A DNA stretch of 64,000 nt from Liolophura sinensis (lineage: Eukaryota; Mollusca; Polyplacophora; Chitonida; Chitonidae): NCBI RefSeq assembly GCF_032854445.1, contig NC_088305.1, positions 28,172,628 through 28,236,627 of the forward strand, written 5' to 3'. Numbering within the stretch: position 1 is the stretch's first letter; each line of letters starts with the position of its first letter. Of the stretch, positions 36,428 to 47,378 are shown one piece after another. The notes below the pieces were generated by a model, which was not told the DNA's origin, ran no database searches, and saw only the letters and a program-made list of their open reading frames with translations. The translations under genes and the position numbers were made by a program.

Positions 36428-36704
36428 TCAAGTGCTAAGGCCAGATGGGTCTGACCAGACTTCAATAGCCGCGGTTCGGAATTCAGACAGAGCTCTACTT
36501 CCAGAGAGAGGTAACACCTTCAGCAGTCTCTGGAATTTGTTTGTACCTTGCGTCGGGATGAAGAACATAATCGACAGCTGTGGGCGATAAAGATATTAGC
36601 TTGACGAAGGTAACCCTCGATGTGAGTGACGCTCGTCATGTCATGAACCAAAAGCTCGTAGTTGTCCTTCAACATCCTCTTGTCGTCTTCACTCATGGGC
36701 TCCA
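36428..36704 (-). CDS. Last exon: CARD
   Basis: The acceptor is 'tgttgaatgttcgtgcag' at 36705. The split codon G|TG joins exactly to the previous exon. The first two helices read '[20 protein letters not shown]' and '[14 protein letters not shown]'. After a one-base shift in 'gccc' (minus strand, about 36581-36583) the remaining helices read '[19 protein letters not shown]' and '[13 protein letters not shown]', ending LST-stop. Both halves fit one CARD at the normal spacing, so the shift is inside a single domain. Confidence 0.65.
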
Positions 36705-45700: not shown

Positions 45701-47378
45701 AACAAATGCAGAAACCGTGCACAGAACATGAATATTTTCTGTGGCTGTTAAAGTAAGAACAGTGCATACGACACGAATACTTTCTGCAGCAGCAAATGGA
45801 GAAACCGTGCAAAGAACATGAACATGTTCTGTGGCTGTAAAAGTGGGAGCAGTGCATACGACACGAACACCTTGTGTAGTAGCAAATGCAGAAACTGTGC
45901 ACAGGACATGAACATTTTCTGTGGCTGTAAAGGTAGGAGCAGTGCATACGACACGAAAACCTTCTGCAGCAGCTAATGCAGAAACTGTGCACAGGACATG
46001 AATATTTTCTGTGGCTGTAAAGGTAGGAACAGTGCATACGACACGAAAACCTTTTGCAGTAACAAATGCAGAAACCGTGCACAGAACATGAATATTTTCT
46101 GTGGCTGTTAAAGTAAGAACAGTGCATACGACACGAATACTTTCTGCAGCAGCAAATGGAGAAACCGTGCAAAGAACATGAACATGTTCTGTGGCTGTAA
46201 AAGTGGGAGCAGTGCATACGACACGAACACCTTGTGTAGTAGCAAATGCAGAAACTGTGCACAGGACATGAACAAGCTTATCATGCCATATTTAGTTCTG
46301 AGAGCGTTTGGAATGGGATTTGAAGAGTGGCATGGCCGTGCATGATGCATGCTATAGTGTATAATAGGCCTGCGTGGAATAAAGGTTACAAAACTAACCA
46401 CCAAGCACGTCTCCCTCGTTACAGAATAAACACCAAAATGGCCAGCATGGTTATCAAATAACAAGTAAACTGGCTTTTATGGAGCAAGTGTTATAAACTA
46501 ATCTCTAAATAAGAATGCAAGGCGCAAGGGTCATAATATGAGCATCAAGCAGGCATGCAAGGAGCAAGGGTAACAAAATGAATACCAAACAGGCCTGCAG
46601 TTAGAAAAATAACCCGTAAATAGGACTGCAAGCAGCAAAGGGTCACAAAATAACCAATTAGTAAGCATGCAAGGAGCAAGGGTCATAATATAACGGAGCA
46701 AGGAATACCAAATAACAACCACACAATTTTGCTTAGAGCAAGGGTTATCAACTAACCACCAAACAGGTCTGTTCAAAGAAAGGGTTAAAAAGATTTTCAC
46801 AGAATAAATAAATAAATTATATGTTGCAGCAAAGCTCATAGAATATGTACCGATTTGAGTGAATTCAGCCAGCGATGTCATTATGCTCACCAAGACCTCC
46901 CCTCCACCACTCAGCCTCGTGTCGCTCAAGAGTGCAAGTAAATCTTCTGTGCTTACTGATATTCCATAAAAGACACCAATACATAGCGATGCGCCTGCAA
47001 TGAAAAATACAGACAACATGAACCTGAATATCTCTCAAATATGGACAATGTTCCCGCTTCCCCGTGGTGTTCTCATGTGACTTCCGTACTCAACCTAGAC
47101 GGCTTCTGTTTTTGGTTTTCTCATTTCGTGGATTTCTACATATGTCCGCTTTATCACTTACTAATCCCATCATAAAAATACACCGGACAGCACGTAATCA
47201 GCAATGCCACACAGTGATACGGTGATACAGCTCAAGATAGATTCAAACATGCCATCTCATTGGTCTTTAGACCTTGAAAATACTTAGGCTGGATTCAATG
47301 TCTGTGTAAATTTTACTCCTCTTTCTGAATGAACTCAAGAAAAAAGACAACAACATCACCTAGTTCCACGTCTGCCAT
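36428..47378 (-). CDS. Coiled-coil, Death and CARD domain protein (frame broken)
   Basis: Ten minus-strand exons join in phase: 47378-47360 (start MADVEL), 46994-46851, 44574-44395 (start less certain, 44603 possible), 43531-43304, 40457-40428 (30-nt microexon), 39719-39537, 39357-39077, 38793-38424, 37437-37237 and 36704-36428, about 637 aa. Residues 1-200 are unrecognised; '[17 protein letters not shown]' loosely recalls UPA-domain ends. Residues 200-355 form a coiled coil ([20 protein letters not shown], '[19 protein letters not shown]'). An 11-residue '[11 protein letters not shown]' is then tandemly repeated. A Death domain follows ([20 protein letters not shown], '[19 protein letters not shown]'), then a CARD ([18 protein letters not shown], '[20 protein letters not shown]'). 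The frame needs one base fewer in a T3 run near 43314, one more in the G run near 39186-39190, and one more in the C run near 36581-36583. Death and CARD modules recruit caspases or kinases in apoptosis and innate immunity. The order Death then CARD is the reverse of CRADD. Pseudogene status cannot be excluded. Confidence 0.7.
37237..37437 (-). CDS. Death-domain exon
   Basis: Acceptor 'catgtcttcttcag', donor 'acgg/gtaagt'. The 201-nt exon encodes [20 protein letters not shown] and '[20 protein letters not shown]', with the conserved Trp before helix 2 and the Trp of helix 5. The first helix comes from the exon before ([10 protein letters not shown]). Confidence 0.8.
37576..37705 (-). mobile_element. 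SINE in intron of the Death/CARD gene
   Basis: Tail 'tatttagttatttatttgct' then 'tgtttcacgccgtactcaag', 'cacttatatgacggcggcca' and 'ggaggaaacccacgac'. Only the 3' half is kept. It lies 27 bases upstream (in gene direction) of nothing coding, in the intron before the Death exon. Confidence 0.8.
38810..38965. mobile_element. SINE 3' scrap and palindromic-MITE fragment
   Basis: 38810-38850 is 'tttatttatttatttcgtgt tttacaccgtac', the SINE 3' end. 38885-38965 ('ttttggtattagaagttgaa', 'gaggtggtaaaatt') matches the inside of the palindromic MITE at 60419-60647. Both sit in the intron between exons 7 and 8. Confidence 0.55.
39885..40385 (-). repeat. 31-bp minisatellite in intron
   Basis: About 16 units of 31 bp ('cactcgtgcttctgtacgca' + 'tgataaataca') fill the intron between exons 5 and 6 of the Death/CARD gene. 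The unit alternates mainly between 'gcaagatatatacaca' and 'gcatgataaatacaca' types, and at least one TpG/TpC change marks each variant. Long open frames on both strands come from the repeat having no stop in several frames. Confidence 0.95.
41167..41290. repeat. (AT)n microsatellite in intron
   Basis: About 124 bases of pure alternating AT, in the intron between exons 4 and 5 of the Death/CARD gene. Confidence 0.97.
42835..43010. promoter_or_regulatory. CpG-dense patch inside an intron
   Basis: In an otherwise CpG-poor, AT-rich intron this stretch carries many CpG ('gacgcggagagcgcagatcc', 'cgcgactgccgcgcggatag') and ends with 'atgaaaatggcggtt'. It may be an internal promoter or an inserted element. 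No open frame with splice support spans it. Confidence 0.35.
44590..44656 (-). repeat. Terminal partial unit of the 90-bp array
   Basis: 'cttctgcagctgcaaaagta' through 'gtgcacaggacatgaacatt' matches the 90-bp unit of 45383-46275. In gene direction it ends at the alternative acceptor 'ctgcag' (44604) of the exon at 44603/44574-44395, so the array meets the exon at its border. Confidence 0.8.
44657..45382 (+). mobile_element. Solo LTR (Ty3/gypsy-like)
   Basis: A 726-bp insertion starts 'tgttatgtgcacgac' and ends 'gtcgtaaca', giving TGTTA...TAACA termini. It is flanked by the direct repeat 'cgat' (44653-44656 and 45383-45386). The flanking sequence rejoins to one unit of the 90-bp array, which proves an insertion. 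Internal signals fit an LTR: TATA box 'tatataag' at 44835-44842, polyadenylation signals AATAAA at 45268 and 45283. No internal retroelement genes are present, so it arose by LTR-LTR recombination. The 124-residue frame at 44847-45221 lies inside and is probably meaningless. Orientation is from the TATA and poly(A) order. Confidence 0.85.
45383..46275 (-). repeat. 90-bp satellite-like array with higher-order duplication
   Basis: Ten units of exactly 90 bp; the landmark 'gtgcatacgacacga' starts at 45402, 45492, 45582, 45672, 45762, 45852, 45942, 46032, 46122 and 46212. The block 45582-45941 (four units) is repeated almost exactly at 45942-46271, so a 360-bp segment duplicated recently. On the minus strand the array reads as a 302-residue Cys-rich frame of 30-residue repeats (such as [19 protein letters not shown]). 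Each unit also has 'tttgctgctgcag' on the minus strand, like the splice acceptor next to the exon at 44603. It lies in the intron between exons 2 and 3 of the Death/CARD gene. Confidence 0.92.

Follow-up and report, generated by a model that had tools for sequence, protein, structure and literature searches.

Here we describe a chiton gene family with seven or more members in the genome, each encoding a Death-like domain placed before a CARD and behind a long coiled coil, one member of which lies in the window, that is, the whole 64,000-nucleotide stretch of DNA analysed here (C11:28172628–28236627). This window copy is most likely a recently inactivated, young pseudogene, and we give the joint reading, a family of seven or more presumptive Death–CARD scaffolds whose window copy is a recently inactivated pseudogene, a probability of roughly 0.7. 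An earlier first-pass annotation had recognised the order of Death before CARD behind a long coiled coil, an architecture that recurs in six paralogs, and had set the gene against a bivalve background, which has to be replaced by that of a chiton. The chiton assembly searched comprises 609,464,459 bases in 632 contigs; the portion of the published account that we draw on describes a Liolophura japonica assembly of 609,495,693 bp in 632 scaffolds, generated with PacBio HiFi reads at 14x, hifiasm and Omni-C (PMC11068029).

The gene lies on the minus strand and proceeds from coiled-coil exons through the Death domain to the CARD exon. Its seven exons from 44609 to about 36418 (exons 4 to 10 in the table) agree in phase after reading through the frame breaks described below, and their splice sites are of mixed strength: by a simple weight matrix, with weights set from general knowledge, the donors of exons 5, 6 and 9 fall in the top 1% of minus-strand GT sites and for the acceptors of exons 5, 7 and 10 the rank is no better than 26–33%. 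Ten phase-consistent exons had been proposed at the outset, and a minus-strand gene with coiled-coil exons does lie where it had been placed, but the exons upstream of 44609 do not resolve into a single phase-fitting chain. The candidate exon at 46994-46891, taken with its best donor, can be joined in phase to the 44.6-kb exon only through one further exon; among the chains enumerated, alternative donors at 46757 and 46908 allow that junction without an extra exon. The start codon at 47378 is putative. At the 3' end, the stop at 36428 that had been taken for the end of the gene is out of frame. The C-terminus typical of the family is present in another frame than the one first proposed, and that reading frame closes at about 36418. 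The duplicated 11-residue segment was borne out as a tandem repeat within exon 8.

Upstream of exon 4 the window also carries a 90-bp minisatellite of about 9.9 copies (45386-46274) with several frames open. By eye, the repeated unit looks like the sequence around the acceptor of exon 4 (about 44650-44603), a copy of which may have given rise to the array. A short dispersed repeat, which we take to be probably a molluscan SINE, occurs at about 48286-48521 and 37614-37720 of the window and in introns of the paralog loci, and is common to many of the loci compared. Ten other open reading frames of the window gave no match above a cut-off in Pfam.

Table. Features of the window gene (positions in the window) and loci of its paralogs (positions on the assembly)
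Feature	Position	Strand	Evidence
Candidate 5' coding exon	46891..46994	-	acceptor top 0.28%, donor top 1.5% of strand
Exon 4, probably a degenerate RRM exon of PARP14 type	44395..44609	-	chiton RRM HMM, E 0.16
Exon 5, alpha/beta segment with an apparent frame break towards its 3' end	43304..43531	-	strong donor after, top 0.8%
Exon 6, start of coiled coil	39537..39719	-	C11a 63% over 27 aa, C8a 35% over 46 aa; donor top 0.2%
Exon 7, coiled-coil exon with a single frame break	39068..39357	-	paralogs 30-49% identical; single-base gap against C11a
Exon 8, helical stalk with 11-residue repeat, ends in first part of Death domain	38424..38793	-	frame open; C11a 54% identical
33-bp tandem repeat coding the 11-residue repeat	38636..38724	-	TRF, period 33, 2.7 copies
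Exon 9, bulk of Death domain	37237..37437	-	Pfam Death; RIPK1 Death E 7e-4; six paralogs 56-71%
Exon 10, CARD over three frames in window copy	36418..36752	-	six paralogs match the CARD query in a single open frame each
Paralog loci, Death-type exon then CARD	C11:26.086 Mb; C10:8.933, 9.089, 9.133 Mb; C9:32.594 Mb; C8:43.608 Mb

The first-pass annotation had placed Death in exon 9 and CARD in exon 10. Both domains have Pfam matches, a comparison that had been proposed as a check, the CARD exceeding its cut-off in one of three read-through versions, but the Death domain is divided between exons 8 and 9. The spliced Death peptide, formed from the end of exon 8 and exon 9, scores 22.6 bits (PF00531, E 1.2e-4), equal as printed to the cut-off of 22.6, against which exon 9 alone reaches 20.0 bits and a further construct 20.3 bits; in the PDB it comes closest to the Death domains of RIPK1 (E 7e-4 to 0.004). 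For the CARD (PF00619, cut-off 23.9), three read-through versions score 24.3, 21.2 and 16.7 bits, the version at 21.2 fitting the paralogs best, and versions with X at the frame breaks score 18.3 and 12.5 bits. The unmended halves of the window CARD have no CARD match in Pfam, and a phmmer search of the window CARD against the PDB found no CARD. We discarded a reading of the CARD with a single frameshift, which gives the best Pfam score but is contradicted by an ungapped alignment to the nearest paralog (C11a, on the same chromosome as the window). No ZU5, UPA or FIIND domain was listed in Pfam scans of the pieces of the gene. The coiled coil is supported by a crude, home-made heptad score, the best 28-residue window against 1000 shuffles, in exon 6 with the first part of exon 7 (p 0.034) and in the second part of exon 7 (p 0.046), compared with p 0.079 in exon 8 and p 0.75 in exons 4–5.

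The same architecture recurs elsewhere in the genome. With a limit of E 1, a search with the Death peptide yielded 12 matches, comprising two pieces of the window, six paralogs, one further piece of a paralog exon 8 and three distant Death domains; the paralogs are 57–69% identical to the window peptide (E 1e-24 to 1e-17) and the distant domains 26–31%. The corresponding search with the CARD peptide returned nine matches, namely three window pieces and the same number of paralogs as before, six. In every paralog the Death-type exon is preceded by coiled-coil exons and followed, after about 0.35–2.2 kb and on the same strand, by the CARD; this Death-type exon, so called on the basis of its 56-71% identity to the window Death exon, is flanked by the same phase-1 boundaries wherever these were printed. 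That six paralogs share one order on one strand indicates that the order and the coiled coil are features of a genuine family.

Members of this family differ in the region preceding the Death domain. By eye, the 11-residue repeat has about six copies in C11a and three in the window copy, and in the paralog on C8 (C8a) three coiled-coil exons related to one another stand side by side, so the length of the stalk differs between members. A shared N-terminus was not recovered by sequence, the upstream matches among those listed being repeats. Upstream of one C10 paralog (C10a) lies a long open reading frame of 258 aa, which we take to resemble a Tc1/mariner-type transposase.

Two of the four paralogs scanned pass the Pfam CARD cut-off of 23.9 (C11a 31.8 and C10c 28.2 bits, with C9a at 21.4 and C8a at 19.6), and none of the four reaches the Death cut-off of 22.6 (C8a 20.2, C9a 12.7, with C11a and C10c unlisted at E up to 1). 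Genome-wide searches of single exons with the Pfam models gave at least 29 Death and at least 20 CARD matches; the Death matches listed include no Death exon of the seven family members, and the CARD matches listed include the CARDs of just two of the six paralogs. On these scores the assignment of the family's domain to Death is to be regarded as marginal.

The N-terminal region, previously described as of unknown nature, now has a candidate identity. A genome search with exons 4 and 5 brought up pieces of the window and one match at E 0.58, but no close copy; with exon 4 as the query, the best match outside the window is an exon upstream of the coiled coil in C8a (E 0.035), which is 34% identical and has its phase-1 donor, by eye, at the same position. 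From six PARP14-type RRM exons at two other loci, of which the four tested in Pfam all exceed the RRM_PARP14_3 cut-off, we built a chiton HMM that ranks the C8a exon first (E 1.3e-8) and window exon 4 second of 1846 open reading frames (E 0.16). The C8a exon itself matches the Pfam RRM_PARP14 models at E 0.014-0.034, below the cut-off, and window exon 4 has no Pfam match. At the level of such profile comparisons, the likeness to a PARP14-type RRM is clear in C8a and weak in the window gene; for the family, the N-terminal region is probably an RRM of this type. Clusters of PARP14-type RRM exons lie at C2:11.81 Mb and C6:65.10 Mb.

Exon 5 offers less to compare. A C8 exon that we likened to it by eye is 27% identical with gaps and was not recovered by window exon 5 alone, and an AF2 model of exon 5 gives a strand-strand-helix-strand-strand arrangement at low confidence (pLDDT 49.9). 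Two further identities were considered and set aside: a beta-grasp or doublecortin-like fold for this exon, which appears in the low-confidence model only and has no PDB relative by sequence, and a TRADD-N/NCOA6 identity for the N-terminal region, which was proposed by eye and for which the N-terminal peptides gave no such Pfam family up to E 10, a search whose HMMER filters discard the majority of weak matches and could thereby miss a distant relation.

Whether the RRM-like and coiled-coil parts belong to one gene bears directly on this architecture. They would instead form two, an RRM-like gene whose exons run to 43.3 kb and end at an in-frame stop, and a coiled-coil–Death–CARD gene beginning at about 39.68 kb, if the stop in the 43.5-kb exon and an ATG in exon 6 were taken at face value. 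Between the two parts lies a gap of 3.6 kb with simple repeats, and RRM-type exons were found upstream of just two of the seven members: none was seen for the other five in the stretches covered, which extended roughly 3 kb upstream in C10b and 13–16 kb in the remaining four. Set against this division is C8a, where the same exon order on one strand is repeated on a different chromosome, which argues for one gene. The stop is moreover followed by a strong donor, even if this is in phase with exon 6 only after the frame break. We consider two separate genes unlikely, and such a division would in any case be compatible with the pseudogene reading.

Evidence that the window copy has been inactivated comes from its reading frame. 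Where the first-pass annotation had allowed for three harmless homopolymer indels, we count five apparent single-base frame breaks, one in exon 5, one in exon 7 and three in the CARD exon, four of which are supported by comparison with paralogs. Residues 1–58, 55–74 and 65–106 of the CARD query fall in three different frames of the window and in one frame in each of the six paralogs, so that the window copy, as assembled, no longer encodes a continuous CARD. In a DNA alignment to C11a, the last exon of the window copy (85% identical) has three single-base insertions within about 121 bases, and the 39.3-kb exon has one single-base gap; alignments to more distant paralogs, and among paralogs, are noisier, with further scattered gaps. 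For the remaining apparent break, that of the 43.5-kb exon, the genome offers no close paralog for comparison. A check of exons 7–10, which for exon 8 of C10a was by eye and in C8a covered one of three coiled-coil exons, showed five of the six paralogs to be open; the sixth, C11a, is broken in exon 7 within the coiled coil. Given a HiFi assembly and five open paralogs out of six, the breaks look like real disabling changes in the window copy.

Selection analysis bears on the age of any such loss. A codon model of 313 codons from seven sequences, with a tree set by identity and with a small number of codons beyond the third insertion read in the wrong frame, gave an overall omega of 0.42. The window branch has an omega of 0.54 compared with 0.40 elsewhere, a difference that is not significant (LRT 1.48), and fixing omega at 1 on this branch fits worse (LRT 6.24); the control branch C11a has an omega of 0.93 (LRT 3.55). 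An omega below 1 on the window branch implies that constraint acted on this copy over the greater part of its history and that its loss, if any, is recent. Since omega is not significantly higher there than elsewhere, decay is not shown by selection alone, and no in-frame stop occurs in 390 aligned window codons.

Alternatively, the gene could be intact in the animal and the frame breaks could be errors of the assembly. Purifying selection on the window branch, the lack of in-frame stops over those codons, the restriction of every break to one base and a HiFi depth of just 14x are all in keeping with assembly error, but the same explanation has to place three insertions in about 121 bases of a single exon, in a HiFi assembly, where six paralogs are open, and has to do so beside a BTB-BACK gene in the window that is clean exon by exon. 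The latter control (four exons, about 1.1 kb coding, each open) is suggestive, being too short to settle an error rate. On balance we find errors of assembly an improbable source of the breaks, and recent inactivation the most likely one. Two copies of a BTB gene are present in the window, at 23734-25856 (+), with a BACK domain, and at 63881-64000 (+), and are 67.5% identical over 40 visible residues.

A CRADD/RAIDD orthologue with its domain order misread, to which the shared pair of domain types might point, is highly improbable, as separate CARD-then-Death loci exist at C7:41.544 Mb and C1:33.318 Mb and Death comes first in all seven family members.

Death and CARD domains work by homotypic assembly, and coiled coils gather such domains. 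By analogy, in intact members of the family the coiled coil would most likely multimerise the protein, the Death domain would bind a Death-domain partner, such as a receptor or a MyD88/IRAK- or RIPK-like protein, and the clustered CARDs would nucleate a CARD partner, for example a CARD caspase or BCL10. The whole might then act as an oligomerising scaffold joining Death-domain input to CARD output, with a putative role in immunity. More tentatively, and at somewhat short of even odds, the chiton family may combine a PARP14-type RRM as a sensor-like end, a long, exon-duplicated coiled coil with an 11-residue repeat of varying length as a multimerising stalk, and a Death domain and a CARD as two death-fold outputs, such that a single protein could wire an intracellular input, possibly linked to nucleic acids or ADP-ribosylation, to Death and CARD pathways, in a family that is turning over now and has at least one dying copy.

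A chiton family of this size with Death preceding CARD, a coiled-coil stalk that varies and perhaps a head of RRM type would show independent reshuffling of death-fold wiring in another class of molluscs, molluscan death-fold immunity being described mainly from bivalves in the literature covered. The open paralogs represent testable proteins, and the window copy illustrates that frame breaks met in reading raw sequence can signal the death of a gene and not noise. In the open-licence literature on Death–CARD architectures, TRADD-N, molluscs and chitons, the titles and opening parts of abstracts do not describe this architecture, and no relatives were confirmed in viral contigs or in bacterial and archaeal genomes.

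Comparison with known systems places the family among several partial likenesses. The upstream exon of C8a matches chiton PARP14-type RRM exons, and in the parts tested, Pfam scans found no macro or PARP catalytic domain. The term 'DD-CARD', as it appears in the part of PMC7053062 that we draw on, denotes a CARD-type death-fold domain and not the order Death-then-CARD. Lineage-specific death-fold expansions with shuffled partners have been described for the TRADD-N/DED/Death proteins of bivalves and lancelets, and the sections of that account consulted report that, of the NCOA6 clade, non-bivalve molluscs have the NCOA6 orthologue alone (PMC8195603). Those bivalve and lancelet proteins carry TRADD-N, whereas the chiton gene has no TRADD-N or NCOA6-type Pfam match. 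In CARD9 and CARD11 the CARD is at the N-terminus and there is no known Death domain. These CARD–coiled-coil proteins are portrayed, in the excerpt on which we rely, as scaffolds of a signalosome (PMC5978004). The chiton gene, in contrast, has a C-terminal CARD plus a Death domain. CRADD/RAIDD is an adaptor with one Death domain and one CARD, of which the CARD comes first, and it is not known to have a long coiled coil. The chiton family shares this pair of domains and reverses it, with Death before CARD throughout its seven members.
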